58,720 nt of DNA, taken from positions 1 through 58,720 of the forward strand of contig JAHECO010000094.1 in the NCBI GenBank assembly GCA_024641705.1, read 5' to 3'. Below are positions 9,173 to 55,606 of this stretch, one piece after another. The DNA is from Candidatus Kryptoniota bacterium (lineage in GTDB: Bacteria; Bacteroidota; Ignavibacteria; Kryptoniales; JAKASW01). Each line of letters begins with the position of its first letter. The stretch's first letter is position 1. Both the position numbers and the translations under genes were made by a program. The notes under the pieces were generated by a model. That model was not told where the DNA came from. It did no database searches and saw only the letters and a program-made list of their open reading frames with translations.

Positions 9173-9553
9173 TTATTTACCTAAAGCTCTGTTGATTGAC
9201 GTAAGGATATCGTCGAGGTCGTACGGCTTGCTGACAAAATCGGACGCGCCAAGCCGCAGCGATTCGATGGCGTTCTTCACATCGGCGTAGGCGGTAAGCA
9301 TGATTACTTTCGTTTCAGGTATGTTGCTCTTCACGTACTTGAGAACCTCAAATCCGTCTACCCTGGGCATCTTAATGTCCAACAACACGACATCGAAGCG
9401 ATCACCCTGTTCGCTTTTCCTGCGAACAAGGTCGATCGCCTCATCACCATCGCCGGCACTCTGGACTTCAAAAGCCTCTGCCTCCAGCTCGCTCGCGAGC
9501 AGGAACCTCAGTGCTTCTTCGTCATCTACGACAAGTACCTTAGGTTTAGACAT
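9173..9553 (-). CDS. Receiver-only response regulator (CheY-like)
   Basis: The 126-residue protein is a lone receiver domain: acidic pair in V-V-D-D-E-E near residues 9-12, phospho-acceptor aspartate in V-V-L-L-D-I-K-M-P (about residue 58), the conserved T in M-L-T-A-Y-A and lysine in V-S-K-P-Y. No output domain follows. It is the last gene of the pilus locus, 9 bases after the secretin gene, preceded by gaaggg. Single receivers of the PilG/PilH type regulate type IV pilus motors in other bacteria; by position I infer a similar role. No cognate kinase is adjacent. Confidence 0.9.
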   Translation of the reverse strand: MSKPKVLVVDDEEALRFLLASELEAEAFEVQSAGDGDEAIDLVRRKSEQGDRFDVVLLDIKMPRVDGFEVLKYVKSNIPETKVIMLTAYADVKNAIESLRLGASDFVSKPYDLDDILTSINRALGK

Positions 9554-9562
9554 TAGCCCTTC

Positions 9563-10828
9563 TCACTTTCCAATTGTCGGGTCGTATTGCCTGACCTTGT
9601 TTTCAAGGTCACGCAATAGATCCTGCACCGATTTCTGCGGTTGGGGTCCTTTCAGCTTCAGCGTGTCATATCGCTCCCTTAATGTCGGAAGAACGTCGGC
9701 CTTAATCAATATGATAAGCTCTTTTGTTTGAACGGTGACGTTGTCGGAGCCTGTCAGGTATCGCAGCCCGAGGACCCACCAGGGAAGGTCTTTAAGTACC
9801 GGGATCCCCTCCCTGTGGCTCGTTCTCGACGTGCTGTAAAGACCACCTATAGTAGTCTGCTCGTCGTTCAAGAGCAATACCTTCGTGTTTGCCTGTTCGG
9901 TGTTTATCTGAAGGGTGGCCGTCCCGATCCCCTGGGCAGAGCTGTTTTGGAGCTGCAGCTGCAAGCCGACGAAGTCGATACTGTCCTGGCTGTATACCGT
10001 CGGGGTTACGTCCATGATAATGCCGGCGTTCTGTTTCGTCTGCACGGTGTTTCCCGCAAAATCCCTTGTCGTCACGAAGAAGTCTACGCCCACCTGGACG
10101 TGCCCAGCCTCACCGGACTTAACCGTAATGTCCGGACTCGCAAGCACCTTACCGAGATCCTCCGATTCCAGGAAGCCGAAGAGTGCGGAGAGAGTCCCGA
10201 AGTTGAAATCGTGAGCTCCGCTGAAAGAGAGCTGACCGCTGACACTTCCCTGCGAGGCACTCGGCGCGACTATCCCGACATTAGGTGTGGTCCCGTCGAT
10301 AGACCTGATGCCCTTCCAGGTATTCTGGATCAGCAGGTTGATGTTGACGCCGTGGGCAGTCAGCTTGGTCAGATCCGCCTCAAAGAACACCGCCTGGATA
10401 TTTACTTCTCTCGTGTCCAGCGTAGGAGTTCCGGGGGGCAAAGCCGGCGCCTGCTTCTCCTCTCCTTTCACGACAACCTGCTGCGCCTGTCCGGGAGTGA
10501 TCTGGATATAGCTGTCGTATTCCTTGTACCATAGATTATTGGCTCTGAGTATGGCCTCGAAAGCGTCGAGCCACTGCATCCGGTCTACGTCGACCCCGAT
10601 CGCCCCGGTCCTGTTTTCCGGATCGACAATGATCTTCTTGAGGAACTTCCTGCTGTAGCTGTCAAGGATGCTGATCGCTTGGTTGAAAGGTGTGTTAGAA
10701 GCGATGGTAACTATCTGGTCCGGAGCGACATAATTGTGACGGAACTCCTTAGGTTCCGAACTGATCTGGGCCTTCACGTCCACGGCGCAGAACAGGACGA
10801 CTAGGAAGAACAAAACTGGTTTTTTCAT
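9563..10828 (-). CDS. pilQ: Small secretin, PilQ/GspD-like
   Basis: About 421 residues. It has an N-terminal signal peptide (K-K-P-V-L-F-F-L-V-V-L-F-C-A), one small secretin/TonB-type N domain (about residues 40-115), and a secretin barrel domain (about 140-385) recognised by V-L-L-L-N-D-E-Q-T-T-I-G-G-L and G-I-P-V-L-K-D-L-P-W-W-V-L-G-L-R-Y. A helical C-terminal tail follows. It would form the outer-membrane pore for pilus passage. It is much shorter than typical PilQ and lacks AMIN and extra N domains, so it is a minimal secretin. ATG at 10828 is chosen over the GTG codon just before it because gagg lies six bases upstream. Confidence 0.88.
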   Translation of the reverse strand: MKKPVLFFLVVLFCAVDVKAQISSEPKEFRHNYVAPDQIVTIASNTPFNQAISILDSYSRKFLKKIIVDPENRTGAIGVDVDRMQWLDAFEAILRANNLWYKEYDSYIQITPGQAQQVVVKGEEKQAPALPPGTPTLDTREVNIQAVFFEADLTKLTAHGVNINLLIQNTWKGIRSIDGTTPNVGIVAPSASQGSVSGQLSFSGAHDFNFGTLSALFGFLESEDLGKVLASPDITVKSGEAGHVQVGVDFFVTTRDFAGNTVQTKQNAGIIMDVTPTVYSQDSIDFVGLQLQLQNSSAQGIGTATLQINTEQANTKVLLLNDEQTTIGGLYSTSRTSHREGIPVLKDLPWWVLGLRYLTGSDNVTVQTKELIILIKADVLPTLRERYDTLKLKGPQPQKSVQDLLRDLENKVRQYDPTIGK

Positions 10829-10840
10829 CACTTTCCTCTT

Positions 10841-11725
10841 CTATTTTCCGAATCTTACTTTCAAATCGACACGGTCTATTATGCCGCCCTTGTTGAGGGT
10901 AAACTCGGCCTCGTTCTTGTTCTGATTGATCTTGGTGAGGTATCCGAGGTAAACCTCGTCACCGATACGCAGGATATGTCCCATCCCGTTCTGGTCGACG
11001 ATAAACACCTTATCGGACATAACGGCCTTGAGATCGGATCTCTCGACATCCACCAGCCCTCTGACATTCGGAGGAGGCTCGGTCGATATCAGAGGTCTCA
11101 GGAAATTCAACCCCACGTTGACGGGCCTGTAGAAAGTCGGATCGACACCGGTCACCTCAGACGACACGCCGGCAACGGACGAGTAGTATGCTTGCAGCTC
11201 CATCGTGAACGGGACGATCGTCTTTGTCATTCCGGTCTGGTCATCGCGCACTTCGTGACCCGTCACGGAAAGATCGCTGACCTTGTACAGGAGCCTGGCA
11301 TGTTCAAGGTACCAGATGAACTTGAACAAGCTCGTGTAGGATGTCTCGCCTTTAAGGTTGTAAGTGTTGTACCCGTATTGCCTCATGGACTTTGGACCCT
11401 GATAAAGCATATCGAACTTCACGAACCCGCTCGAGTTCATTATCCGGTCGAGATAAGCGTACGTAAGTGCGGTTGTGTCGTTTGATGGAATGACTTTGAA
11501 CCTCTTCGCGTACCTGTTCTTCATTTCTGCGAGCTTATCCTGGGATGATTTCAATTCCGCTGCGACAGCGGGACGCTGGTCGATGGTCCTGTTGAGCGTA
11601 ACGATCTCGGTCTGAAGTTTCTTTTTCACTCCCGGCTGTACGACTTTCGTCAGATAGAACCCGACGCTGAATATTATCGCCAGAAAAGCCGCGAGGACTA
11701 TTGTGTTTCTCAGAGCATAGGACAT
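10841..11725 (-). CDS. PilO-PilP-like fused alignment protein
   Basis: The 294-residue product has a short cytoplasmic start, one membrane helix (NTIVLAAFLAIIFSVGFYL, about residues 7-25), a periplasmic coiled coil, a PilO-like ferredoxin-type region (to about 190), then a proline-rich linker and a C-terminal beta domain. In that domain the order V-F-I-V-D-Q-N-G, L-R-I-G-D-E-V-Y-L-G-Y and L-x-K-G-G-I-I-D-R resembles the homology region of PilP. In classical systems PilO and the lipoprotein PilP are separate and link the inner-membrane platform to PilQ. Here one chain appears to do both, directly before the secretin gene. The PilP assignment rests on motif order and context only. Confidence 0.7.
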   Translation of the reverse strand: MSYALRNTIVLAAFLAIIFSVGFYLTKVVQPGVKKKLQTEIVTLNRTIDQRPAVAAELKSSQDKLAEMKNRYAKRFKVIPSNDTTALTYAYLDRIMNSSGFVKFDMLYQGPKSMRQYGYNTYNLKGETSYTSLFKFIWYLEHARLLYKVSDLSVTGHEVRDDQTGMTKTIVPFTMELQAYYSSVAGVSSEVTGVDPTFYRPVNVGLNFLRPLISTEPPPNVRGLVDVERSDLKAVMSDKVFIVDQNGMGHILRIGDEVYLGYLTKINQNKNEAEFTLNKGGIIDRVDLKVRFGK

Positions 11726-11737
11726 GTTACTTTATCC

Positions 11738-13264
11738 TCACTTTTGCGGAACGTTCAAATCAATTTGGAAATCGTATACGGTTTTGCTGCGTATCTCCTG
11801 GATAGTGACTTTTCTCAAAACAGAGCCGGGATACATCTGGGCGAAACGCGGTATCCTGTCCCGGTACACGGAAAATCCCTCCACGAAATACTTACCGTCC
11901 TTCAGCGCATGGACATCCGTCAGCCACATGCTCCCAACCTGCCTCACGGACCGGGATAGGGAACCCATCAAGTATGACCACCTATCCGTATTCGGCATCA
12001 GCGAATCGAGAATACCGATCGCTGTCGAGTACTTGGTGAATTGCGACTGCACGGAAGTGATTTGGGCCTTCAGTGCGGCCACCTCTGCCGCCTGGGCTCT
12101 TTTGACGATGATATCGGACCTGATCCTGGAGATCTCGCTCTGGTTGGAGGAATAATTATAAGTAAAGAAGAAAGTGGAACCGAAAACCAATATGGCGAGA
12201 AGAAGGCCATGCCAGGCGAGCTTGAAGATTTTCTGACTCTCACGGATCTTGTTCGGAGTCAGGTCGGCGGCATAGTAGCTTTTCGATTTTCCCACGGCGG
12301 CGCGCGTGGCACTCGCTATCGGCACAGCGTATTGCGGAATCAGGTCGGCGCCTCCCGCAGGAAGCTGCGATACGTCAACCCTGTGCAGCTGCAGGTAGTC
12401 TACCTCAGCGCCGACGAGCAACGACGAAAGAAAGCCCTTGATGTCGAAATTCTTGCACTCGCCGCAGAGGATTACCTGGTCTATCCTCGGAAGACTCAGG
12501 TTATCCTGTCCGAGAAGGATCCTGCTGTAGATCGTGTTCTGGACGCTGAATGAGTCCGCACCTTCGCTTATGATAGGCGCTATGTTGAAGAGATGTTTCC
12601 CCCGCATGAATATCAGCCTGGTGTATTCGATGCCGACATAGACGATAACCGTCACCTCGTCTTCCCTCAGGGGGTAGTTTGTCTTCACGAGGTTCACAAG
12701 AGCGATGTCGCTGCTCTCCACAAACGCGATCTTCGGCATGCGCGATCCGAGGAAGGGACGCGCGCTCATTACCAGATCGAGCACTGGAATCTCCTGTTCC
12801 CTTACCACGCCGACGAAACTCGTCTCAGAGGTGCTGGAGAGGAGCTGCACCTGCTCCTTCGTTACGCCTGCGCGGGTCGCCTGCAATTCCTCGATTATTC
12901 TCGCCACGATCTTGTCGCGCTTTTGCTTGCCCTGGATCTCGATGGGATGATAGAACACGTAAGGTTCTCCAACCGACAGGGCCAGGGATTTCTTCTTGTT
13001 GTACCTGTTGAACACCTCGGTTATCACCGAGGCGTTGTTCTCTTCGCTCGGCGCCTCCTGCAGAGAAGCCTGGGTCAGGTCGATAGTCTCGGCAGCCGAT
13101 TCAAAGCCGGCAGCGGCCGCCACGGGTGCGGCGACCTCCAGTTTCTGGGCAAGCTTGGCGTTATAAAGATCGAGAAGGATGATTTTTCGTCCGCGTCTGG
13201 CGACGTGAGCGACCTTCAGATCTACTCCGTCAGCATAAAGTCCGAGGGCATCATTGGCAGCCAT
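11738..13264 (-). CDS. PilM-PilN fusion, pilus platform protein
   Basis: The 508-residue protein joins an actin-like PilM domain (about residues 5-330) to a PilN-like part: a short A-D-L-T-P-N-K-I-R-E motif standing where PilN has its PilM-binding INLLP motif, a membrane helix (WHGLLLAILVFGSTFFFTYN, about 358-377), a coiled coil and a periplasmic ferredoxin-like domain. In standard systems PilM binds the PilN tail in the cytoplasm; fusion makes that link permanent. The PilM nucleotide motifs look degenerate: the expected G-I-D-I-G is L-G-L-Y-A-D-G, and the second aspartate motif reads V-Y-V-G. ATP binding may be lost. aggag lies six bases before the ATG. A 13-base gap precedes the next gene. 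Confidence 0.8.
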   Translation of the reverse strand: MAANDALGLYADGVDLKVAHVARRGRKIILLDLYNAKLAQKLEVAAPVAAAAGFESAAETIDLTQASLQEAPSEENNASVITEVFNRYNKKKSLALSVGEPYVFYHPIEIQGKQKRDKIVARIIEELQATRAGVTKEQVQLLSSTSETSFVGVVREQEIPVLDLVMSARPFLGSRMPKIAFVESSDIALVNLVKTNYPLREDEVTVIVYVGIEYTRLIFMRGKHLFNIAPIISEGADSFSVQNTIYSRILLGQDNLSLPRIDQVILCGECKNFDIKGFLSSLLVGAEVDYLQLHRVDVSQLPAGGADLIPQYAVPIASATRAAVGKSKSYYAADLTPNKIRESQKIFKLAWHGLLLAILVFGSTFFFTYNYSSNQSEISRIRSDIIVKRAQAAEVAALKAQITSVQSQFTKYSTAIGILDSLMPNTDRWSYLMGSLSRSVRQVGSMWLTDVHALKDGKYFVEGFSVYRDRIPRFAQMYPGSVLRKVTIQEIRSKTVYDFQIDLNVPQK

Positions 13265-13284
13265 ATTGCACTCCTAGATTTGGG

Positions 13285-14526
13285 CTACATCATCTGCAGG
13301 AGTTGTTCCATCCTGCGTTTATTATTTGCATAGTTTAATGCGTTCTCTTTCGAAATCCTGCGCTGCATATAGAGCCGTTTCAGATCCTGCTCCATCGTCA
13401 TCATTCCGATATCCGAGCTCTCGGAAATCATCTGGTAGATTTCGCTCGTGTTCTTGTTCTTGATGGCGGCCTTCACCGAAGGGCTCGCGACAAGGACCTC
13501 CTTCGCAAGCACCCGCTTGCCGTCAAGACTGGGAACGAGCTTCTGAGATATGACACATTGGAGGACGTCGGCAAGGCGCTGCCATACGCGTTCCTGTTCC
13601 GTCGCAGGCACCTCGGCCACGATCCTGTCGACGCTTTCCACTGCGGAAGCTGTATGCAGCGTTGAAAACACTTTATGTCCGCTGTCCGTAATTTCCAGCG
13701 CGGTCATTATCGTATCTGAATCCCGCATCTCAGCAATCATCACTATATCGGGGTCCTGCCTCAGGGCCTCAATAGCACCCTCTTTGAAGGACAGGGTATC
13801 CCTCCCCACCTCGCGGTGGCGCACGATACATTTATCGGAAGTATGCACATATTCAATAGGAGATCCGATGACTATTATGCCACCGCTGACAGTGTGATTG
13901 TTCATGTCGATGATCGAATCGAGCGTCGAGCTCTTTCCGGATCCCGTGATACCGGTGACAAGGATCAAGCCCTCTTTCGTGTGCGCAAGACTGAGAATGT
14001 TGAGCACGTTCGGATGAAAGACGAGATCGCTGACGGAGCGGACCTGCTCGTTAATAGCGCGCATGTTGAGTGCAACTTCTTCCATGTCAAGGTAGACATC
14101 GGCACGGAAGCGGGAAATCCTCTTGTCCTCCTCGAACATGTAGGAGAAATCGAGGTTGCGTTTATCATAGAAGAACTGGCGCTGCCGTTCCGTAAGAATG
14201 TTCTGGATCATGATACTAGACTCTTCGGCGCTGAACGTCCCCCAGGACTCCTCCGGCTTCTTCGCACCAAAGACCCTGTACCATACTCCTCCCTTGGCAC
14301 CGAAGCCGCCAATATCTATATCCGAAGCGCTGTTGTCACGCATCTTCGACAGGAAGCCGTTGAAGTAGTTCCTGATTTCGATCCTCTGATCGTCCGGGAG
14401 GTTGGCAACCATATTGCCTATGAAAATATGTCGTTCGATTCCCCGGACAAGATCCGAAACCTGTGATGACAATTGCCTCAGTAAGTTTCTTGCAGGCGAC
14501 GCATCATTTGCCTGAACAGCTTCCAA
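13285..14526 (-). CDS. pilT: PilT-like pilus motor ATPase
   Basis: The 413-residue protein has an N-terminal region of about 165 residues and a secretion-ATPase core: Walker A GITGSGKSS near 191-199, the Asp box, Walker B-type region I-V-M-I-A-E-M-R-D, and the His box H-K-V-F-S-T-L-H-T. PilT family members power pilus retraction; the lack of the tetracysteine found in PilB-type ATPases fits PilT or PilU. One oddity is that the usual I-E-D-P-I-E-F box reads I-G-S-P-I-E-Y, so two acidic residues are missing while the final Glu remains. The start is TTG at 14526, supported by aggag six bases upstream. It lies between pilB and the platform fusion gene. Confidence 0.88.
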   Translation of the reverse strand: MEAVQANDASPARNLLRQLSSQVSDLVRGIERHIFIGNMVANLPDDQRIEIRNYFNGFLSKMRDNSASDIDIGGFGAKGGVWYRVFGAKKPEESWGTFSAEESSIMIQNILTERQRQFFYDKRNLDFSYMFEEDKRISRFRADVYLDMEEVALNMRAINEQVRSVSDLVFHPNVLNILSLAHTKEGLILVTGITGSGKSSTLDSIIDMNNHTVSGGIIVIGSPIEYVHTSDKCIVRHREVGRDTLSFKEGAIEALRQDPDIVMIAEMRDSDTIMTALEITDSGHKVFSTLHTASAVESVDRIVAEVPATEQERVWQRLADVLQCVISQKLVPSLDGKRVLAKEVLVASPSVKAAIKNKNTSEIYQMISESSDIGMMTMEQDLKRLYMQRRISKENALNYANNKRRMEQLLQMM

Positions 14527-14585
14527 TTCGCTCTCCTATGTTAGTGCAGCAATTTCGTGGCCCTGACCGGCATCACGGGAGTCAT

Positions 14586-16382
14586 CTAGTCCTCTGTGGT
14601 AGTGGCGGCGACTTCTTCCATTGTCGTCACCCCTTCCAGAACGCGGTGAATGCCCGCCCGACGCAGCGTCCACATACCGTCTTTTATAGCCTGCTCACGA
14701 ATGTCGTCTTCGTTGATATCCTCTCCTGCGCTCATTATGATGCGCTTTATCTCACGTGTAAAATACAACGCCTCGTGTATGGCCGCTCTTCCTTTGTAAC
14801 CCGTACCGGTGCATTTTTCACATCCGACCGCTTTGTATATAGTATTGGCCTTGAGTTCCTCTTCGGTAAACCCGAAACGCAGATAAGGCTCCTTGTCAAT
14901 CTCATCCTTCCCTATCGGCTGCTTGCAGTTCTGGCACAGCGTCCGGACGAGTCGCTGAGCGACTATAATATTAACCGCACTCGCGAGAAGGAAGGGTTCG
15001 ATTCCCATCTTGTAAAGCCTGGCGACGGCACTCGGAGCATCATTAGTGTGCAACGTCGAGAACGTCAAGTGACCCGTGTTTGCCAGCTTTACGGCAATTT
15101 CGGCCGTCTCCCTATCACGGATCTCACCGACGAGGACTATGTCCGGGTCGTGCCTCAGGATCGACCTTATCGCCTGCTCGAAATTCATTTTCGGACCGAT
15201 TCGGAGCTGCCTTGCTCCATTGATAATATACTCGACCGGGTCCTCGACGGTCAGCACGTTCACCGTGGGGTCGATCACCTGGTAGAGTGCCGCAACCAGC
15301 GTCGTGGATTTGCCGCTTCCGGTGGGTCCGGTAAGAATGATCATACCCTGCGGCTTCTTGATCGCCTTGTAGAAACTCTCGCGAGCGGGCCCCTGCAAAC
15401 CCAGCTTCTCGAGGTCGGTAATAACCTTTCTGTCGTCCAGCACGCGGATGACAACGCTTTCGAACTTGTGCCTGAACTCACTGGCCACCATGGGGAGGAT
15501 GGATACACGGAACCTGATCCAGTGGTCGTCTATCTTACGCTGGATGAAGGCATCCTGCCCGGCCTCGCGCTCAAACCTGTCTGCTCCCTTCGATCTGTCC
15601 TTGATTACGGCGGAGACCGCCTCCGGCAGCACGCCATCCTGCGTGTACCACAACCTAAGATCGCCGTCTATGCGGAAGTGCACGTCGGTCCTGCTTCCGT
15701 CCCTCGGCACGACGTGAACGTCGCTTGCCCCTCTCCGGACAGCCTCCACCAGCATTCCTTCGACAAGATTGATGAGAACGCTCTTGTTTATTTCGGCTTC
15801 AAGCTGCTGCTCGTCGATACCCTCTTCTTCGCCTGATGTAATCTCGCCGAGCTCGTCCTGAGTTGAGCTCGTCAGTACCTTCAGAAATTCGTTTTCGGGA
15901 GGGAACACTTTGTCGATTAATCCCTGAAGATCCTTCAGCCTGACGTAAGCGACTTCGTATCGCTTGGCTGCGAAGCTTCTTGCGAGTCTCGGGATCTCCT
16001 TGTTGGTGGGGTCGGCGGCCACAATGATAAGTTTATCGGGACGCGCTTCGTCAAATTTGAGCGGGAGCATCTTCGCGCTTATGATCTCGTCCTTGAGATT
16101 GTCGCCCGATTCGACCAGTTTCTTGACGAAATCGATTCGTTCGGCGTCGATCACCTCGTCTGCCAGATAAATCTCCCGAAACCCGTACAGGTTGGCGACT
16201 TCTCTGAAAACCAGATCGTGTTCGACGTTGAAATCGGAGACCAGTATCTGCGCGAGCGTGCGGCGGGTCTTTGAATCCTCCGCTTCTTTCTTCTTTATCG
16301 CGAGTTCAAGCGTCTCGTAATCGATGATCCCCTTCTTGAGAAGCGTATAGCCTAGCTTATCACTTATGTCAATTTCAGGCAT
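14586..16382 (-). CDS. pilB: PilB/GspE-like pilus assembly ATPase
   Basis: About 598 residues. It has an N-terminal GspE/MshE-type region (to about 165), then the ATPase core with Walker A GPTGSGKSTT near 352-361, Asp box V-E-D-P-V-E-Y, Walker B I-V-L-V-G-E-I-R-D and His box L-T-F-S-T-L-H-T. A zinc-binding tetracysteine follows, C-Q-N-C and, about 40 residues later, C-E-K-C, the hallmark of PilB/GspE extension ATPases. It would drive pilin polymerisation with PilC. The ATG at 16382 is chosen because gagggg precedes it; an in-frame TTG at 16394 would overlap pilC by 4 bases. Confidence 0.93.
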   Translation of the reverse strand: MPEIDISDKLGYTLLKKGIIDYETLELAIKKKEAEDSKTRRTLAQILVSDFNVEHDLVFREVANLYGFREIYLADEVIDAERIDFVKKLVESGDNLKDEIISAKMLPLKFDEARPDKLIIVAADPTNKEIPRLARSFAAKRYEVAYVRLKDLQGLIDKVFPPENEFLKVLTSSTQDELGEITSGEEEGIDEQQLEAEINKSVLINLVEGMLVEAVRRGASDVHVVPRDGSRTDVHFRIDGDLRLWYTQDGVLPEAVSAVIKDRSKGADRFEREAGQDAFIQRKIDDHWIRFRVSILPMVASEFRHKFESVVIRVLDDRKVITDLEKLGLQGPARESFYKAIKKPQGMIILTGPTGSGKSTTLVAALYQVIDPTVNVLTVEDPVEYIINGARQLRIGPKMNFEQAIRSILRHDPDIVLVGEIRDRETAEIAVKLANTGHLTFSTLHTNDAPSAVARLYKMGIEPFLLASAVNIIVAQRLVRTLCQNCKQPIGKDEIDKEPYLRFGFTEEELKANTIYKAVGCEKCTGTGYKGRAAIHEALYFTREIKRIIMSAGEDINEDDIREQAIKDGMWTLRRAGIHRVLEGVTTMEEVAATTTED

Positions 16383-16390
16383 GAGGCCCC

Positions 16391-17731
16391 TCAACCAGCT
16401 CCTGGCACCGATGGGCTGATCAGTGCAGACTCAGAAGAGACTATCGTAAGGGCGATCATGACTATCATGATTATCATCGAGACGATGACCTGGATGAAAT
16501 CGATCGCATTCTTCAGCTTGTATCCGGTTTCTTTTTCGTAGTAGTTCGCGAGCTGCAGCGCCGTATTCCGCACAGTTCCGGTCTCAGCACCGCTGTGGAA
16601 TCTCGAGATAGCCGTCTCACTGAAGACGTTGGTAGCGGCGAGCGATTCGGTAAGCCCCTTGCCCTGCGTCACCATCATGGGTATGGCGACCGTTTTGATC
16701 TGGTGCTCCATGTACTTGTTTCCGCATGCCTCGGCGGCGAGCCTGATGACGTCAATGTTCTCCCCGGACCCGCTGTACATAGCGTAGAACACCCTGCAGA
16801 ATATCTCTATACTTGTTTTGTGCAGCAACCCACCAACCGCAGGTATCTTAATCATGTACTTATCCATGTAGAACCTGCCCTTCTCAGTGGTGGCAAATCT
16901 CGCCATGAAAATCGAACCCGCGACAACGATCAGGCCCATCCACCAGAAGTTGGCCGTAAGGAAATGGCTGAGTTTCAGCGTAGCAGCCGTCATAGGCGGA
17001 ACCTGACCCAGCTTCGCGAACAACTCGGCGGTTGCGGGGAAGATATATGCCACGTAGTAGATGACGGCGATGAACAGGACAAACATTGTAACGGCCGGCA
17101 TTATGAGAGCGCTTTTGAGATTCTTCTTGAATTCCGCCTGCCGTTCGAGGAATTTCGCCGTGCTCTCGTAGATCTCCGACATATTGCCGCTCTTGGACGC
17201 AAGACCGAGCATATGGGCCGTAAATCGGCCGAAAACTTTCTCGTGTTTTAGGAACGCCTGTTCGCTGTCCTTACCCTGCTTTAAGTCGTTGTTGATGTCC
17301 CGGACCGTGTCCCGCAAAGTCTTGTTCTCAATATCGTTTGTCAAGAGCTGCAGGATCTCATTAAAGGGAAGCTTCTCCCTTAGCAGGTCGGCGCTGACAC
17401 GCACGAACGTGACCACTTCAGTGGCAGGGGGTTTCGGTTTGAAATCGAGAAGCTTCTTCTGGACAGAGATTACCTGAAAATCCAAATGCTGCAGGGCCTG
17501 CTTCACCTCTTCCTTCGTGAACGCCTTCTGTTCGCCGGTCACGGGCTTCTCCCCGTTGCGGCGCACCCTATACACAAAGGTAGAGCGGGCCCTTAGGTCT
17601 GTCAGTTTGAATTGGTTTTTCGAAGAAAGGTCTGCGACGATCTTCTTTGCCTGTGCGCGGGTTTCTGCCGAGACTATCCCTTGAACTGCGCGCCCGCCCG
17701 GCTTAACGCCCTGGAACCTGAATTCCGGCAA
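16391..17731 (-). CDS. pilC: PilC/GspF-like platform protein
   Basis: The 446-residue inner-membrane protein has a soluble N-terminal region of about 110 residues and then two GspF repeats (about 125-245 and 325-440). Three hydrophobic segments are visible, at about 225-250 (A-L-I-M-P-A-V-T-M-F-V-L-F), 275-295 and 415-435. It is the platform on which PilB and PilT act. The start is TTG at 17731 with gaggagg seven bases before it. It is separated from the upstream pilin gene by a strong hairpin terminator, so part of its expression likely depends on read-through. Confidence 0.92.
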   Translation of the reverse strand: MPEFRFQGVKPGGRAVQGIVSAETRAQAKKIVADLSSKNQFKLTDLRARSTFVYRVRRNGEKPVTGEQKAFTKEEVKQALQHLDFQVISVQKKLLDFKPKPPATEVVTFVRVSADLLREKLPFNEILQLLTNDIENKTLRDTVRDINNDLKQGKDSEQAFLKHEKVFGRFTAHMLGLASKSGNMSEIYESTAKFLERQAEFKKNLKSALIMPAVTMFVLFIAVIYYVAYIFPATAELFAKLGQVPPMTAATLKLSHFLTANFWWMGLIVVAGSIFMARFATTEKGRFYMDKYMIKIPAVGGLLHKTSIEIFCRVFYAMYSGSGENIDVIRLAAEACGNKYMEHQIKTVAIPMMVTQGKGLTESLAATNVFSETAISRFHSGAETGTVRNTALQLANYYEKETGYKLKNAIDFIQVIVSMIIMIVMIALTIVSSESALISPSVPGAG

Positions 17732-17745
17732 CTTTCGCCCTCCTC

Positions 17746-17797
17746 AAAATAAAAGGCAGGCGGGCAGCAAATCCTGAAACTTCAGGATTACTGCCCG
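17746..17797 (-). terminator. Terminator or attenuator between pilin and pilC
   Basis: cgggcag and ctgcccg (17761-17797) enclose a second perfect stem, atcctgaa/ttcaggat, giving a 15-pair hairpin with a small internal bulge. On the minus strand it is followed by cctgccttttatttt. It lies 20 bases after the pilin stop. Confidence 0.8.
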
Positions 17798-17817
17798 TCT
17801 TCCCTATCAATATGTGA

Positions 17818-18276
17818 CTAGTTAAGTACCTTCGTCGTTGCGCCGTTCTGGGTCACAACAGTTACGGCCTCAACATGGTTTATGTTGTCGTTGCCGACCT
17901 CGGTTCCAATACCGCAGATATAGATTGAATCCAAGGCAGTACCGACTGCGCCAACAGTACCGCCCATGATGCCCGTATGCGCAACGTACGTGTTCGCAGG
18001 ACCCGGATCAGTCGCCTGTACCCAGTAGCTACCGTTTGCATTGCCCGTGTCCACGGCGGCCATTGTGAACCCGCCGAAGCTCTGTCCGCCACCCGCCATC
18101 GCTACCGGTTTGCGATAGAACTGCTGTGCCTTCGCCGCGAGGTTATTCAAGTCGTTAATAACCTGGTCGCGGTTCGAGCTCTGTGCATTGCTCTTGAACA
18201 TCGAAATTCCGACCGCTATCGCGATTCCTACTATAATGACTCCAAGAACAATTAGCAGAAGTTGTTGCTGTCCCAT
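17818..18276 (-). CDS. Major pilin-like protein with minimal leader
   Basis: The 152-residue product begins M-G, then QQQLLLIVLGVIIVGIAIAV, a hydrophobic helix starting almost at residue 1, then a polar helical stretch and a Gly/Ala-rich beta-type C-terminal domain. This is the overall plan of a type IV pilin, but the leader is one or two residues and the Glu at +5 is missing, so it differs from classical prepilins. It is the first gene of the pilus locus, has its own strong promoter (18342-18370), the best ribosome binding site in the window (aaggaggt, four to five bases before ATG) and a terminator behind it. These features suggest that it is made in large amounts, as a major subunit would be. 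Confidence 0.8.
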   Translation of the reverse strand: MGQQQLLLIVLGVIIVGIAIAVGISMFKSNAQSSNRDQVINDLNNLAAKAQQFYRKPVAMAGGGQSFGGFTMAAVDTGNANGSYWVQATDPGPANTYVAHTGIMGGTVGAVGTALDSIYICGIGTEVGNDNINHVEAVTVVTQNGATTKVLN

Positions 18277-47753: not shown

Positions 47754-50700
47754 CTACGGGTACAGGACCTTATGAACCTTCTTGGCAAGTTCGTAAGCCG
47801 TGAAGGGTTTCTGGAGGAATTCGACTCCGTCACCGAGGACCCCTTCGGGCGCGAGCGCATTGGCGCTGTACCCGGACATGAACAGCGTTTTGATACCCGG
47901 CCTGAGAGCAGCTATCTTCTCGCTCAACTCCCTCCCGTTCATGGCCGGCAATATTACATCTGTCAACAGGACATCGATCTTCTCCGGATATGCCTCGCAG
48001 AAAACGATCGCTTCTTCCGCATCGAGCGCCGTCATGACCTTGTAGCCGTATTCTTCCAGGTTCTCTTTTACGAGCTCGATCAGATCGGCCTGGTCCTCGA
48101 CCAGTAGGACGGTCTCGCTCGACCGGAGGGATTGAGGAGAAACCATTTCCTCCACCTCTTCAGTCTGTTCCTTGTCGAACCGCGGAAGGTAAATGCAGAA
48201 TGTCGTGCCTTCACCGGGCGCGCTTCTCACCGTTATCGCGCCGTTGTTACGCTTGACGATCCCGTAGACCGTCGCCAGCCCCAGACCGGACGCCTGACCT
48301 TTTTGCTTGGTCGTGAAGAAAGGTTCGAAGATCCGCTCCTGGAGGTTCCTGTTCATCCCTCTGCCGGTATCGGAGACAGAAATCATTACGTATTCGCCCG
48401 GCGTGAAACCGACATGCTTGCGGACGAACGATTCGTCCACGACGACATTGGAAGATTTTATCTCGATCGTCCCCGAATCTCCGGTAATGGCATCCCTTGC
48501 ATTTGCCGCGAGGTTTACCAGCATCTGATCCAGGTGAGTCGGATCGATCCTGACATTCCACAATCCCTTCAACGGGACGATCTCGAGTTTGAGTGAATCT
48601 CCGATTATCCTCTGGAGCATCCCCTCCACCGTATCGATCGACTTATTGACATCGACAACCCGGGGGGACATCACGCCCTTCTGAGCGAAAGCAAGGAGTT
48701 GTTTTGTGAGGTCAGCACCCCTCCTTGTGGCGGTAAGGATGGCCTCGACCGGCATCCGGGCGGGATCATGTTCGTTCAGTTTCCTCTTGAGCAGCTCGCC
48801 GTATCCGAGTATCACACCCAGGATATTATTGTAGTCGTGCGCGACTCCGCCCGCGAGTTCACCTATCCCTTCGAGCTTCTTGGCCTGCAGGAGCTGATCC
48901 TCGAAGGATTTGCGCATAGTGATGTCCTGCTTTATCCAGACGAAGTGGGTCACCGCCCCCTTGTCGTCAAGAACCGGCGTAATTGTAAGATCTTCCGTGT
49001 AGAGCGTACCGCTATTGCGACGGTTTATGATTTCACCGTGCCAGACGCTCCCCGAGAGGATCGTATCCCAGAGAGACTTGTAGAACCTCTCATCCTGCTC
49101 GCCGGAGCCGGTAATATCGAAAACTTTCCGGCCGGTCGCTTCTGAAACCGAGTAACCGGTAAGCGTCTCGAACGCAGGATTGGCCCACACGATAACGCCC
49201 TCTTTGTCCGTCACCACAATGGCATTTGCCGCAGTCTTCAGCGCCACGTTCTGCAGGCGGAGCTGTTCCTGAACGCTCATCCGGTTCGTCATATCCCTTG
49301 CGACGACCTGGACCGAAGGCTTTCCGAGATAAGTTATCGGCGCCACGATCACGTGCACGTCCAGGCTTGAGCCGTCTCCGCGGAGAAATTTCTCACTCTC
49401 CAGCTCGACGGGCTTTAGCGACTTATGCATCTCATCCAGCCCGCCGGCAATCCGCTGATGGGAATCGGGATGGACCAGATCAAGAAGCCTATTCCCGACG
49501 ATCGCTTCCGTCGAATCGGCGCCGAGCAGCTTAAGTGCCGCAGGGTTTACATAGACAAGGCTGTCTTCGGTGAGGACCATTATAGCATCCGGAGATTTGT
49601 CGACCAGCAGTCGGTGCTGCTCTTCGCTCTCTTCGAGCTTCTCCCTGGCGTTTCTTCGCTCCGTCACGTCGTACACTGTGCCGAGCACTGCAACATCCCC
49701 TTTGTAAGTCGTCGTGGCCGCGGTAAAATCGATCCACCGGCTTTCACCGGATTTGGTCCTTACCCTCAGCTCGAAGTGGTTGGGAACGGTTTCACCTCTC
49801 TGGCGGGCCATGCCCAGCTCTTTTACAAGCTCCCGGAAATCAGGATGGACGACGTCCCAGAAGTCCATCTTTAAAAGCTCTTCTTCGCTGTATCCCGTCA
49901 CCCTGACACAAGCGGCATTGACGTAGCAGATCTTGTTCCTCTGGTACATAAAGATCGCCGTCGACGCAGACTCGGCGAGGGTCTTGAATTTCTGTTCGCT
50001 TTCCCTCAGAGCGTTCTCCGCCATCTTGCGCTGCGTAATGTCGTAGAGCATGAACTGCGCCTGCTGGATCTCACCGTCCGGGTTGCGGACGATCTTCCCC
50101 TCCACGGCAACCGTGACCCTCCGTCCGTCCTTGGCGATCACGTCGACCTCGAGATTCCCGAGCGCGCCCGCTGTCTTGAATGCCTCAAGCCTTTCCTTGA
50201 GGAGATCCGCGTGCTCGGGCGCGACGAATTCGACGAAATCCTTCTCGACAGCTTCACCCTTCCGATATCCCAGCAGGTCCATCCAGCTGGTATTCACGTC
50301 GACTATCTTCCAGCGGGCATCGAGCAGGTGATACGGAACGGGTGAGTTCTCATACAGCAGCCGGTAGCGCATCTCGCTTTCCCGGATGGCGTCGTCGGCT
50401 TTATCCTTCTCGGTAATGTCTTCAAAGATACCTATGCCCCCGGCAGCAGATACACCCTGAGGCGCGATCGCCGTGAAAGTAGTGCGCACGTGTATCGTCT
50501 TGTTGGACGTGAACGAGCGATATTCGCCCTCGTACACACCGAGTTTGCCTTCAAGCACACTCCTGACGGCGCTCACCAGCTCCTTGCTCGGCAACTCCAG
50601 CAGCTTCAGCCCTATCACCGACTTCCGGGAAGACCCCATGATATTCGCGAGGCTTTCGCTGCAGTCCGTTATGATTCCGTTGTCGTCGAAATGAAGGATC

Positions 50701-52253
50701 CCGAGGGGAGATTTCTCAAAGATAGACCTGTACTTTTCTTCACTCCGTTTCAACGCGGTCTCGGCACTCTTTCGCGTGGTGAGATCGCGGCTGATGCTCA
50801 CAAAATAATCTTCACCGTCGACAGCAAGCCGCTGCAGCCTGGTTTCCACCGGGAAGCCAGAGCCGTCTTTTCGTTTATGCATCGTTTCGAAAACAATGCC
50901 ACTGCCGTCCGCCGTGTTGATTCGCTGCTGTAAAGATTCCCATGAATCGGCAGGACGCAGATCGTATATCGTCTTCTCCAGTAATTCTTCCCGTGAATAT
51001 CCATATACCGCTTCCGAGGCCCGGCTCGCCTCAACGATCTTGCCGTCAGCCTTCCGGAAGAAGAGGACGATTTCCGAGGACTCCCTGAAGAATTGTTCGT
51101 ACTTGTTCGTCCCGGGCTGGGCGGCAGGATGATGCGTGATTTCACGACAGAACCCTTCACGGTAAACGATTTTGCCGGCATCGTCGCGCACGTACCTCGC
51201 GTGGTCTTCGACTTCTATTTCAACTCCGTCTTTCTTCCGCAGGCGATAAGTCTCGGGCACGACGATGTACTCACGCATCTCATTATTGCTTCCCAACACG
51301 GGAGCGTCGACGTAGATCGACCCTGACACGTCGGGGGACAGCAATTCTTTCCTTGTATAACCGAGCATCGAGGCAAAGGCCTGGTTCGCCTCCACGAACT
51401 TATCTTCGGGTGTTCTACGGTAGTAGCCCTCGGGCATGAGCTCCATGAGCCGGTTGATATCCGGCGTGTCTTCGGTCGGCGCCACCTCTTCGTGCTTCTG
51501 TGCGGATGCCTCACCGATTATGAGGTGCACGAGTCTTTTTTCGCCGACGGTTACCTCCGTCCCCTGCATAACGCACGAGCGCGTCTCTCCTCCGGCCAGC
51601 CGATGGTCACAGTAGATCATGCTGCCGGCGCCTCCCGACATCGAATCGGATAGTTTCTTCAACAGTTCGTCGCCCGGGAGAGCGACAAGGTCCGCGATCT
51701 GCATTGAACTCAATTTCTCGCGGGGGTACCTGTAGAAGGAGGCCGCGGACGGATTGGCATCGGAGATCTTTCCGCTCTCCGGTTCATACAAAATCATGGG
51801 TGCGTTGTTCTTCTCGAAGATCAGACGGAAGCGATCTTCACTCTCCTGGCTGGTTTGAGGCGAGCGATTTTGTCCCAAAAGGCTGTTCACTATTACGAAG
51901 GCCGCCCTGTGTCCCTCGTATTTCAGACCCTGGGTGGTAATGTCAACCTCGATGACTGCCCCGCTCTTCAACCGGTGTCTCCACCCTCGCCATTCCCGTA
52001 TTACCGGCTTTCCGTCGACCGGCTTTTTGCCCGGGTCGACCTCTTCCGGCGGCCTGAGATCGTTGATCGACATGCCGAGGAATTCGGGCCTTGAGTATCC
52101 ATACCTCCGGACCGCCGCCTCGTTGACCGCAAGAAAACGCAAAGTCTCGAGATCGTAAATCCACATCGGGAGGGGATTACTATCGAACAGAGTCCTGAAT
52201 AAGTCTCCCTCATTGGGAGTCGGTTGACCCATGTAGTGTTCCGTGGCTATCAT
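47754..52253 (-). CDS. Hybrid histidine kinase with nine PAS domains
   Basis: The 1,499-residue protein has no membrane helix. I count nine successive PAS or PAS-PAC units from about residue 18 to 1105, each ending in the D-I-T-x-R/K type linker. A HisKA domain follows with the phospho-His in G-G-V-A-H-D-Y-N-N (about 1120), then an ATP-binding domain (L-A-A-N-A-R-D-A-I, D-T-G-R-G-M, G-L-G-L-A-T-V-Y-G-I) and a C-terminal receiver (V-L-L-V-E-D-Q, phospho-Asp in V-L-L-T-D-V-I-L-P). This is a cytoplasmic multi-input sensor. No DNA-binding partner is adjacent. The nearest following cluster encodes pilin-like proteins, a link I can only note. Confidence 0.92.
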   Translation of the reverse strand: MIATEHYMGQPTPNEGDLFRTLFDSNPLPMWIYDLETLRFLAVNEAAVRRYGYSRPEFLGMSINDLRPPEEVDPGKKPVDGKPVIREWRGWRHRLKSGAVIEVDITTQGLKYEGHRAAFVIVNSLLGQNRSPQTSQESEDRFRLIFEKNNAPMILYEPESGKISDANPSAASFYRYPREKLSSMQIADLVALPGDELLKKLSDSMSGGAGSMIYCDHRLAGGETRSCVMQGTEVTVGEKRLVHLIIGEASAQKHEEVAPTEDTPDINRLMELMPEGYYRRTPEDKFVEANQAFASMLGYTRKELLSPDVSGSIYVDAPVLGSNNEMREYIVVPETYRLRKKDGVEIEVEDHARYVRDDAGKIVYREGFCREITHHPAAQPGTNKYEQFFRESSEIVLFFRKADGKIVEASRASEAVYGYSREELLEKTIYDLRPADSWESLQQRINTADGSGIVFETMHKRKDGSGFPVETRLQRLAVDGEDYFVSISRDLTTRKSAETALKRSEEKYRSIFEKSPLGILHFDDNGIITDCSESLANIMGSSRKSVIGLKLLELPSKELVSAVRSVLEGKLGVYEGEYRSFTSNKTIHVRTTFTAIAPQGVSAAGGIGIFEDITEKDKADDAIRESEMRYRLLYENSPVPYHLLDARWKIVDVNTSWMDLLGYRKGEAVEKDFVEFVAPEHADLLKERLEAFKTAGALGNLEVDVIAKDGRRVTVAVEGKIVRNPDGEIQQAQFMLYDITQRKMAENALRESEQKFKTLAESASTAIFMYQRNKICYVNAACVRVTGYSEEELLKMDFWDVVHPDFRELVKELGMARQRGETVPNHFELRVRTKSGESRWIDFTAATTTYKGDVAVLGTVYDVTERRNAREKLEESEEQHRLLVDKSPDAIMVLTEDSLVYVNPAALKLLGADSTEAIVGNRLLDLVHPDSHQRIAGGLDEMHKSLKPVELESEKFLRGDGSSLDVHVIVAPITYLGKPSVQVVARDMTNRMSVQEQLRLQNVALKTAANAIVVTDKEGVIVWANPAFETLTGYSVSEATGRKVFDITGSGEQDERFYKSLWDTILSGSVWHGEIINRRNSGTLYTEDLTITPVLDDKGAVTHFVWIKQDITMRKSFEDQLLQAKKLEGIGELAGGVAHDYNNILGVILGYGELLKRKLNEHDPARMPVEAILTATRRGADLTKQLLAFAQKGVMSPRVVDVNKSIDTVEGMLQRIIGDSLKLEIVPLKGLWNVRIDPTHLDQMLVNLAANARDAITGDSGTIEIKSSNVVVDESFVRKHVGFTPGEYVMISVSDTGRGMNRNLQERIFEPFFTTKQKGQASGLGLATVYGIVKRNNGAITVRSAPGEGTTFCIYLPRFDKEQTEEVEEMVSPQSLRSSETVLLVEDQADLIELVKENLEEYGYKVMTALDAEEAIVFCEAYPEKIDVLLTDVILPAMNGRELSEKIAALRPGIKTLFMSGYSANALAPEGVLGDGVEFLQKPFTAYELAKKVHKVLYP

Positions 52254-53227: not shown

Positions 53228-54475
53228 CTACTCCCACCAGGAAGCGATCAGATACCTGTAAGCACTGGGGTAGGCCGGAGGGGTCTTGCTGCTGTAACGC
53301 GCGTCGTACCGGTAATCGCTGGTCCAGCCGTCAAGCGATGAGTTTTCGGTGGCCCCCAGACTGTAACCGGTGATGGAGCCGTAGACTGTGATAGCTCCCA
53401 TCGGTTGGGTTGCCATGCTGTAGTTCGCACCGAAGTCCCCGTTCTGCGAGAATATTGCCGCATCGATAGTATAATTGTTCTGCATCTGCGCGGCCGACGG
53501 CGGATTTACGAGAACGTTGTACGAGGCGACAACGCCCAGCATATCGGTGCTGTTCGGATTCGTGCTGGGATCGGAGTTGTAAAGGACATTTCCCTCGACG
53601 TAAACTTGCCCTCCCCAACTCGAACTCGAGCTGTAGGCGCCGACAGTCGCGCGCCCGTTGACCGTTCCCTGCAAATGCAAAATCCCGTTGTTCACTATGA
53701 TGACTCCGTTCGGTGCGAGCGTCGTCAGCGCGACGGTTGAATCTGCCGCCATGCCAGGGGTCTTGTAACTGACCGTTCCGTTGCTGTTGAAAGTCAGGTA
53801 TACGTTATAAGCCGTGCCCGGACTTGGATTGTTGAAGACGATTCCTCCGGTCTGGGCGGCGTTGAGAACGGACGACACACTCGAAGCCGGCATGGGCACG
53901 CTCACCCCTGTCTTCAGGTTGTCTTGAAATATCGGGCCGACGGGAGGAGGTCCGGGAGAGTATGCCGGTGAAGCGTTGAGCTTCCCCGCTATTGTGACTT
54001 CTCCTTCAAACACCGGGCTGCCGCTCGTGTTCAGGTCGCCTTCGACGTGAAGGGGACCCCGGATCGTATCGCCCGTCGCCCAGGAAATTCCAGACATGGT
54101 CTGCATGCTCACCGCAAAGAGGCTGAAGTAGTAGCGTCGAAGGACTATTATGACACTGTCGACCACTCCGTCGTAGGAGCCGACCGCCGTCAGTGTAACG
54201 TTTGAGTCAAGCCCGGGGATCAGCGCGGATGTGACCGAATATGTGCCGTCTGAAAGATCTCCGGTGACATTCAGATTTGTCGTATTGTAGTTCCAGAAGA
54301 GCGAGTCCGCGCCTATGTTTGCAGCACTGACGGCGATGTTGTGGACTACCGTCGCATCGTAGTACTCCGTCATATTTTCCGTGGCGGCGAGGCGGTTCCT
54401 GTTCCAGTATTGCGAAGACAATCCGAAAATGATGCTGAAACCCAGGATGACGATTAATGTACCTCTTCCTACCAA
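53228..54475 (-). CDS. Large pilin-like protein, second cluster
   Basis: The 415-residue protein begins M-V-G, then RGTLIVILGFSIIFGLSS, a hydrophobic helix at the very N terminus, followed by an alpha-helical spine and a long Gly/Ser/Asn-rich beta region with repeated V-x-V-x-G segments. This is the plan of a large minor pilin (PilX/PilY-adapter-like). The C terminus ends W-W-E. The start is TTG at 54475 with gagg six bases before it. It is the third and last gene of a three-gene operon. By analogy it could sit at the pilus tip or act as an adhesin; that is inference. Confidence 0.78.
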   Translation of the reverse strand: MVGRGTLIVILGFSIIFGLSSQYWNRNRLAATENMTEYYDATVVHNIAVSAANIGADSLFWNYNTTNLNVTGDLSDGTYSVTSALIPGLDSNVTLTAVGSYDGVVDSVIIVLRRYYFSLFAVSMQTMSGISWATGDTIRGPLHVEGDLNTSGSPVFEGEVTIAGKLNASPAYSPGPPPVGPIFQDNLKTGVSVPMPASSVSSVLNAAQTGGIVFNNPSPGTAYNVYLTFNSNGTVSYKTPGMAADSTVALTTLAPNGVIIVNNGILHLQGTVNGRATVGAYSSSSSWGGQVYVEGNVLYNSDPSTNPNSTDMLGVVASYNVLVNPPSAAQMQNNYTIDAAIFSQNGDFGANYSMATQPMGAITVYGSITGYSLGATENSSLDGWTSDYRYDARYSSKTPPAYPSAYRYLIASWWE

Positions 54476-54484
54476 AATATACCT

Positions 54485-55084
54485 CTACCTTGCCAGCAAG
54501 TTCCTTGAGATTAGTCTTGTCTCTTTCCAGACAGACCACACGGTGTCGTATGCCGCATTGTACATTGCGGTCGGCTCGATCTTCACTGTCACCTCTATTA
54601 TCCTCACATTGTCCGGCGCAACGATCGGCGGCTGAAGCGTGTCGTCAAACTGATCGAAATACGTCAGGTTGAATTGCGCGATCCCCAGATTCGCTTCGAT
54701 CGCAGGCTGGTCGTCTATCTTTCTGTAAAAATATTTCACATCCGGATTGGGACATCCTGCGACGGGTCCTCCAAGGAAATAGCTCACAGTATCAAATTTC
54801 CCTATCCTGTCTATGTCGGCTTCAAACGCCACGGAATCAGATGTGCCCGCAAGTATGAAATACCGCCTGTCGGGAGTCACGTTGATATTGTTTATGTACC
54901 CTATCTTTCCGAAATACCATTCGATTTCCTGTACCACCGACGTCAGGTTCTGCTGGACAGTCAGGGTAGCCTGCGTCTGGTAAGTGTTCTCCGTCGCCTT
55001 CTCATTCATCTTCACGGCAACGAGGAGCAACAAACCACCGACAAGGATGGATCCGGCGATGTCTATCATTGTCGAGCTGCCCAT
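54485..55084 (-). CDS. Pilin-like protein, second cluster
   Basis: The 199-residue product begins M-G, then SSTMIDIAGSILVGGLLLLV, followed by a polar helix (Q-T-Q-A-T-L-T-V-Q-Q-N-L-T-S-V-V-Q-E-I-E) and a beta domain. The arrangement resembles GspJ-like minor pseudopilins. The leader is again only M-G, and there is no Glu at +5; an Asp stands at +6. It lies 12 bases after the first and 9 bases before the third gene of the cluster. Confidence 0.75.
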   Translation of the reverse strand: MGSSTMIDIAGSILVGGLLLLVAVKMNEKATENTYQTQATLTVQQNLTSVVQEIEWYFGKIGYINNINVTPDRRYFILAGTSDSVAFEADIDRIGKFDTVSYFLGGPVAGCPNPDVKYFYRKIDDQPAIEANLGIAQFNLTYFDQFDDTLQPPIVAPDNVRIIEVTVKIEPTAMYNAAYDTVWSVWKETRLISRNLLAR

Positions 55085-55096
55085 ATTGCTACTTCC

Positions 55097-55606
55097 TCAC
55101 TGGAGAAAATACCAATATGCGTACACGGTCGACATTTTCACCGTATCCTGAGGAAAATTGTCATTCCAGACGTACACATCGAGTCGTTTCGCCCAGGTGG
55201 GTGTTGAAGAGTAGGTAAGATTTCTCCCCGATACGTAGTACACCTTCGTAAACACGTGATATATTCCGCTTATCAGTGTGTCAGGAGGAGCAAGTCTTCC
55301 CATGCCCCCGGGCGTCCCGTTGTAGTCGTCGAAATCATCGAAATCGTTCGACCCGGTCTCCTGCCCCAGAGAAGTTGCCGGCGTCAGCTGGCTTGTTGAT
55401 GTGACCGGAACCCCGCGCGAGTTCTCATCGAATGAGGTGTCTGTAGCCGCCTGTATCACGGATGTCGCGAGCGATATCGATTCCAGCTGAATATTCGTGT
55501 AGGTTGTCGCTTGATTGTTATTTATGAGACTGGTATTCGTCGTGAGTATGATTGATCCCAACAGGATTATTGCCCCGACCGTCAATAACATCTGTCCCGT
55601 TCCCAT
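55097..55606 (-). CDS. Pilin-like protein, second cluster
   Basis: The 169-residue product begins M-G, then TGQMLLTVGAIILLGSIILT, a hydrophobic helix from residue 4 on, then a polar helix and a beta-type domain with an acidic D-D-F-D-D-Y patch. It is the first gene of the three-gene cluster. Together with the pilin at 17818-18276 it shares the start pattern M-G-x-x-Q-x-L-L. No strong ribosome binding site is seen. Confidence 0.75.
   Translation of the reverse strand: MGTGQMLLTVGAIILLGSIILTTNTSLINNNQATTYTNIQLESISLATSVIQAATDTSFDENSRGVPVTSTSQLTPATSLGQETGSNDFDDFDDYNGTPGGMGRLAPPDTLISGIYHVFTKVYYVSGRNLTYSSTPTWAKRLDVYVWNDNFPQDTVKMSTVYAYWYFLQ

Follow-up and report, generated by a model that had tools for sequence, protein, structure and literature searches.

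A compact type IV pilus-like locus with predicted leaderless pilins and a two-chain scaffold in Candidatus Kryptoniota and related bacteria

Type IV filaments are conventionally defined in part by cleavage of a leader by prepilin peptidase, and the setting of pilins into the filament is conventionally ascribed to Glu5 together with the free N-terminus. Can a pilus machine be built without them? This question is raised by a locus at positions 9563-18276 of contig JAHECO010000094.1 (assembly GCA_024641705.1, Candidatus Kryptoniota bacterium), the 58,720-nt stretch that we analysed and refer to as the window. From sequence comparison and predicted structures we consider it quite probable that the locus, from a lineage of the Bacteroidota/Ignavibacteria/Calditrichota group, encodes a compact type IV pilus-like machine that can retract and assembles without leader processing. 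A first-pass annotation had read the locus as a pilin, PilC, PilB, PilT, two fused chains (PilM-PilN and PilO-PilP) and a secretin; all seven genes are present where it had placed them, intact and on the minus strand, and PilB, PilC, PilT and the secretin are matched by curated family models (Table 1). It missed the oddest feature, pilins without a leader peptide, and also three minor-pilin-like genes in the window.

The major pilin is, judged from its predicted start, encoded without a class III leader. In the window the start codon of MGQQQLLLIVLGVIIVGIAIAVGISMF has AGGAGG five bases ahead of it and an in-frame stop five codons upstream. A set of 63 pilins, drawn from 64 open reading frames (ORFs) plus that of the window with ORFs open at a contig end excluded, has Gly at position 2 and Gln-Gln at positions 4-5 in every member, with no Asp or Glu in positions 2-15 and no Lys or Arg in positions 1-15; a class III signal peptide, with its charged leader and Glu5, is absent from all 63. 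We rejected the idea that a leader was overlooked through a wrongly placed start because in-frame stops lie 1-19 codons upstream in 63/63, and a ribosome-site-like core precedes the start in 49 of them. Within the family the N-terminal helix is conserved and the C-terminal part variable. Among PDB sequences the pilin profile has its best matches in the geopilin chains of Geobacter (2m7g at E 0.014, 9egp at 0.017 and 7tgg at 0.035) and in PilE1 of S. sanguinis (8pfb at 0.022), and all begin at profile position 9, which meets chain residue 6 in 2m7g and 8pfb. Matching type IV pilins in one register is suggestive of kinship and does not prove it. The gene also keeps the company expected of a pilin, lying within 1.6 kb ahead of pilC in 38 of the 41 loci with both and tracking PilO-PilP from genome to genome (together in 135, PilO-PilP alone in one, pilin alone in two; 135/138, Fisher p 7e-103, related genomes not being independent). 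Two more leaderless copies lie in the window's genome away from recognised pilus genes (L179 7778-8212 and L180 7999-8433). No description of leaderless pilins was found in the literature, as judged from titles and abstract openings.

The three minor-pilin-like proteins V, W and X are likewise predicted to be encoded without a class III leader. Their genes occupy 53228-55606, 35 kb from the main cluster, and we term them minor-pilin-like from place, order and N-terminal make-up: in many related loci pilB and pilT are separated by a trio of genes, roughly 180, 225 and 420 aa in length, and proteins of this type have at most a few residues ahead of the hydrophobic stretch. Searches of the PDB with the V and W profiles (A10, A11) found nothing useful. 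Near these genes in the window, at 47754-52253, lies the gene for a hybrid histidine kinase of very great length, 1499 aa, with some nine PAS domains and a receiver, and in Aliifodinibius a protein judged by eye to be cyclic-nucleotide-binding-like stands between pilB and pilT (L096 6274-6774).

Since Pfam recognises neither the 508-aa nor the 294-aa chain as a whole (the former matched no Pfam family), both were examined by predicted structure, the check that the first-pass annotation had proposed, and by profile. The model of the longer chain (pLDDT 82.7), for which the window's sequence was combined with 56 homologues (56 of the 73 listed loci), has an actin-like PilM domain at residues 1-338, a PilN-like linker at about 333-344, a membrane helix and coiled coil at 351-443 and a PilN-type alpha/beta domain at 446-504. 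Residues 4-338 match P. aeruginosa PilM 5eou with Z 26.6 and a root-mean-square deviation (rmsd) of 3.0 over 291 residues (VIA on the predicted structure, as in the comparisons below), T. thermophilus PilM 2ych with Z 26.1 and cyto-EpsL 1yf5 with Z 15.8; FtsA is the next family after PilM, at Z 18.5-21.1, as expected for the fold. None of these matches spans the C-terminal domain, which is no argument against PilN, and the profile of this half finds M. xanthus PilN (3jc8_Na) at E 2.6e-9 with nothing else below 0.07 among 177,635 PDB sequences. The Pfam PilN model matches 14 of 57 family members individually. At the junction stands the consensus NLLPxxIRExQ (DLTPNKIRESQ in the window), which we take to be PilN's PilM-binding motif; the profile A7 has one weak PDB match, PilM-PilN1-12 (E 0.016), and in that weak alignment the junction falls on the PilN1-12 tail of the crystal chain. 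The PilM nucleotide motifs had been called degenerate, and PilM does appear to have lost the aspartates of both phosphate loops: Asp is found at neither position in any of 36 homologues, the first position being placed by the weak alignment to the same crystal chain and the second presumably as in the actin fold. Chains of 859 and 948 aa occur in L073 and L094, the usual size being 505-590. Joining PilM and PilN in one chain is of a known kind, having the layout of GspL and a fused counterpart in C. difficile (available text of PMC6916266).

The PilO-PilP chain is predicted (pLDDT 88.2) to comprise a membrane helix and coiled coil (3-73), a PilO ferredoxin-like domain (84-183), a linker and a PilP/GspC-HR beta domain (216-292). 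Residues 84-183 match PilO 2rjz (Z 11.1, rmsd 2.2 over 92), residues 216-292 match PilP 2lc4 (Z 9.2, rmsd 2.6 over 74) and residues 228-291 match GspC-HR 3oss (Z 8.7, rmsd 1.0 over 57). By sequence, the Pfam PilO model matches 17 of 68 members and reaches the window's protein at E 0.0018, under its cut-off; no PilP match was returned by Pfam on family members or by the profile against PDB sequences, so the PilP assignment rests on fold and position. The possibility that the halves are not PilM, PilN, PilO and PilP was rejected on these predicted structures and profiles, and the inner-membrane scaffold is accordingly modelled as two polypeptides, as had been proposed. No separate pilN or pilP belonging to the locus was found. 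The sole PilN model match in the genome is the GspL of a type II secretion system (T2SS)-like locus on contig C26 and was rejected as a pilN of this locus, and the PilP model gave no match in the window's genome, a weak test in which only 1 of 14 control genomes matched, below cut-off, nor in 382 genomes of the phylum, where no control matched and the test is weak too. An apparently unfused PilO gene in genome G247 was rejected, the copy on G247:C69 being cut by a contig end; partial PilO matches at G247 C101 and in G173 are GspM-like genes of T2SS-like loci. In the literature searched, whose coverage leaves out most subscription papers, no description of a PilO-PilP fusion was found.

The secretin, first put at about 420 residues, carries a signal peptide, one weak N0/STN domain at about 45-112 and a secretin barrel domain at 221-381. 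Among 38 family members the domain scan lists Secretin in 38, STN in 10 and Secretin_N (N1) in none, and in the T2SS-like secretin of the same genome, a control scanned with the same library, STN and N0 are found and Secretin_N is matched below cut-off. In the alignment only about 30 residues separate N0 from the start of the barrel domain, which leaves no room for an N1 domain; the protein, which presumably sits in the outer membrane, thus appears to have a single detectable periplasmic domain, N0. Balneolaceae-type secretins (L084, L095, L096, L101, L104) are longer, at 624-664 aa, and two of the 38 members scanned match a SPOR domain.

The suggestion that this is a simplified envelope-spanning machine of the lineage held up and was extended by the genome comparisons. 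PilM-PilN is matched in 31 of 41 relatives, far above chance and mostly as full-length homologues; it stands with PilO-PilP in 30/30 fetched relative loci, and the secretin and PilT are present in 29 of these, the remaining locus being truncated. A scan of named genomes then gave 80 loci (kept out of 98, found by patterns in the PilP half and for that reason favouring fused genes) from Ignavibacteria, Kryptonia, Calditrichia, KSB1, Balneolaceae, Electryonea, LCP-89, Neomarinimicrobiota and others. In these, PilM-PilN precedes PilO-PilP in 78, the other two beginning at or near a contig end; PilO-PilP is full length in 79, the exception lying at a contig start; the secretin follows PilO-PilP in all 80; and a PilT homologue is present in 68, several others being short contigs. 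Across the phylum, PilO-PilP at E 1e-20 or better occurs in 136 of 392 genomes (146 matches, 10 with E above 1e-20 set aside), cut by a contig end in G247 and listed near full length in the rest. Family alignments, each with the window added, drew on 67/77 listed loci for PilO-PilP, 56/73 for PilM-PilN, 37/77 for the secretin and 36/64 ORFs for the pilin. Ten additional stretches were sampled from genomes of divergent families; pilin was found in eight (f29, f35, f37 twice, f39, f48, f50, f62), the other two being cut by contig ends, and 10/10 pilin genes begin MGQQQLLL. Several of them repeat the arrangement pilin-C-B-V-W-X-T-PilMN-PilOP, and there too V, W and X are leaderless, judged from their predicted starts.

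Most genomes with the machine have no detectable prepilin peptidase, the enzyme that would remove a leader. We sought the enzyme with PF01478, for which controls matched in 12 of 14 genomes. The family was matched in 7 of the 148 class genomes scanned and, across the phylum, in 46 of 392; it goes undetected in 120 of the 135 genomes with PilO-PilP and a leaderless pilin, and is statistically unlinked to PilO-PilP (odds ratio 0.90, p 0.87). Where a peptidase was inspected, it lies mostly in a T2SS-like cluster. In three genomes of the same genus (four loci) its neighbour is a GspE-type ATPase, and 3/4 loci also have a leader-bearing pseudopilin close by; of six peptidase-positive genomes inspected among the 15, a leader-bearing pseudopilin lies near the peptidase in G097, G247, G036, G148 and G031; in G283 a pattern search found none near it. 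The window's genome has such a T2SS-like locus, L117 (G000:C26:93500-101227), with GspE, a 683-aa secretin and GspL-, GspM- and GspC-like genes, which runs into the contig edge. PF01478 has no match in this genome, and because the T2SS-like contig ends just after gspE the absence of a peptidase there is unproven. On another contig, C31 (L181 4087-6268), leader-bearing pseudopilin-like genes adjoin a second PilC/GspF-like gene; as this PilC-like gene of their own lies with them, their products look like part of the T2SS-like system.

We propose that the locus probably represents a class of type IV filament of its own, whose major and minor pilins are translated essentially mature (MG-QQQLLL...) and would dispense with leader cleavage, N-methylation, Glu5 and prepilin peptidase, on a two-fusion scaffold with an N0-only secretin. 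Several observations weigh against this proposal: 15 of the 135 genomes with the system do carry a PF01478 peptidase; same-genus genomes have one by gspE, so that the window's genome may hide one past the end of C26; and a divergent peptidase could be missed by the search. Furthermore, by sequence the kinship of the pilin to type IV pilins is weak (best PDB E 0.014), and hhalign alignments among the pilin families and against leader-bearing pseudopilins for the most part did not exceed controls. The minor-pilin-like set goes unrecognised as pilins in Pfam, and the PilP part is backed by fold and not by sequence.

Other readings of the same genes can be weighed. The 15 peptidase-positive genomes, the Gly that precedes the putative mature residue in 63/63 pilins and the archaeal pilin with an N-terminal Gln known from the accessible part of PMC4471445 would all suit pilins cut after Gly2 (MG/QQQ) by a prepilin peptidase that is divergent or of an unrecognised kind, with a leader merely shortened to two residues. 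We regard this as unlikely, as there is no positively charged leader at all, Gly is not at a fixed place in the minor-pilin-like proteins, PF01478 is missing from 120/135 genomes and the peptidases inspected lie mostly in T2SS-like clusters. Were the MGQQQLLL proteins instead small inner-membrane accessories, the true pilins would be leader-bearing, encoded elsewhere and matured by a PilD-type peptidase; Pfam and NCBIfam give no convincing pilin call for these proteins, and leader-bearing N-methyl proteins do exist on contig C31. Those proteins, however, lie with their own PilC-like gene and look T2SS-like, and in 120 of 135 genomes no peptidase that could mature leader-bearing pilins was detected. 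The MGQQQLLL proteins are built like a major pilin, find type IV pilins as their best PDB matches in one register, are encoded near pilC, track PilO-PilP and have extra copies per genome, which makes an accessory role very unlikely.

A further alternative is that the machine is T2SS-like and builds a pseudopilus with no surface pilus. In its favour, the PilM-PilN chain has the GspL layout, PilO is like GspM, PilP is like GspC-HR and the secretin is short. Yet a PilT above its curated cut-off adjoins PilM-PilN in the window, with PilT homologues recurring in the named loci, and a T2SS-like locus with GspE, secretin and GspL-, GspM- and GspC-like genes of its own lies elsewhere in the same genome, so that we hold this alternative quite unlikely.

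Under the proposed leaderless class, pilins would be inserted as short N-tailed membrane proteins and then lose formyl-Met. PilB and PilC would polymerise them and PilT would take them apart, with no leader cleavage and no pairing of an N-methylated residue with Glu5, a pair that the invariant Gln-Gln may replace. As in GspL, the PilM part would act structurally, linking the ATPases to the envelope as an adaptor; PilM-PilN and PilO-PilP would pair via their PilN and PilO domains, and the tethered PilP domain may dock on N0, giving one contact chain from cytoplasm to outer membrane. If true, a widespread and conserved machine without leader cleavage or Glu5 would make the assumed need for both testable and would explain why leader-motif searches miss these bacteria. 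Finally, with its two-chain scaffold and N0-only secretin, the machine would be a small, naturally occurring system in which a pilus scaffold that spans the envelope could be reconstituted.

Coordinates of all features are collected in Table 1, together with a possible regulator whose position directly downstream of the secretin is equal in many related loci by gene-order comparison.

Table 1. Predicted features of the window and the basis for each assignment
Feature	Coordinates	Strand	Basis
Major pilin, leaderless, no Glu5, 152 aa, begins MGQQQLLLIVLGVIIVGIAIAVGISMF	17818..18276	-	N-terminus, upstream stop, profile vs PDB
PilC platform protein, 446 aa	16391..17731	-	PF00482 E 6.8e-33; NF052607 E 2.8e-44
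PilB assembly ATPase, 602 aa	14586..16394	-	PF00437 E 3.8e-107; TIGR02538 E 1e-135, under that model's cut-off
PilT retraction ATPase, 413 aa	13285..14526	-	TIGR01420 326.3 bits vs cut-off 319.1 (passed)
PilM-PilN fusion, 508 aa	11738..13264	-	predicted structure vs PilM (Foldseek, VIA); profile vs PilN
PilO-PilP fusion, 294 aa	10841..11725	-	predicted structure vs PilO, PilP, GspC-HR (VIA)
Minimal secretin, 422 aa	9563..10831	-	PF00263 E 1.4e-27; family alignment; domain scans
CheY-like response regulator, possible regulator	9173..9553	-	PF00072 E 5.6e-31; directly downstream of secretin
Leaderless minor-pilin-like V, 169 aa, begins MGTGQMLLTVGA	55097..55606	-	profile A10 E 7.5e-39
Leaderless minor-pilin-like W, 199 aa, begins MGSSTMIDIAGS	54485..55084	-	profile A11 E 4.7e-38; in-frame TGA 5 codons upstream
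Leaderless minor-pilin-like X, 415 aa, begins (M)VGRGTLIVILG	53228..54475	-	profile A12 E 5.4e-77; DUF4900 E 0.0047, below cut-off

In the text searched of the superfamily survey PMC6668835, neither Ignavibacteri nor Rhodotherm is mentioned, and Bacteroidetes T2SS are there said to cluster with the type IVa pilus. Of the systems that are described, the Akkermansia Amuc_1098-1102 pilus cluster (NF042912 for Amuc_1098, NF045709 for Amuc_1101) resembles the locus in that the PilM-PilN chain of the window matches NF045709, 'PilM-like pilus complex protein', at E 1.6e-7 and the window's PilO part resembles Amuc_1100 (6kny, Z 9.7), although the former match reaches 30.5 bits against a cut-off of 650 and its best stretch is only at the PilN side. 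The C. difficile type IV pilus shares the fused PilM and PilN but is that of a monoderm, without PilP or secretin, according to the available text of PMC6916266. As for the T2SS, GspL also unites PilM-like and PilN-like domains and GspC-HR resembles the PilP part of the locus, GspL, GspM and GspC being relatives of the PilM-PilN, PilO and PilP parts in the portion of PMC4471445 that is accessible; there, however, GspM and GspC are separate, PilT is lacking, and the pseudopilins are leader-bearing and accompanied by a prepilin peptidase. Compared with the type IVa pilus of M. xanthus (3jc8) and P. aeruginosa, the locus has a scaffold of two chains instead of four, a PilM without the phosphate-loop aspartates, a secretin in which N1 goes undetected, pilins that lack both the class III leader and Glu5, and a prepilin peptidase that is mostly undetectable, whereas the core proteins and their domain folds are the same, and PilT, PilP and N0 are kept.

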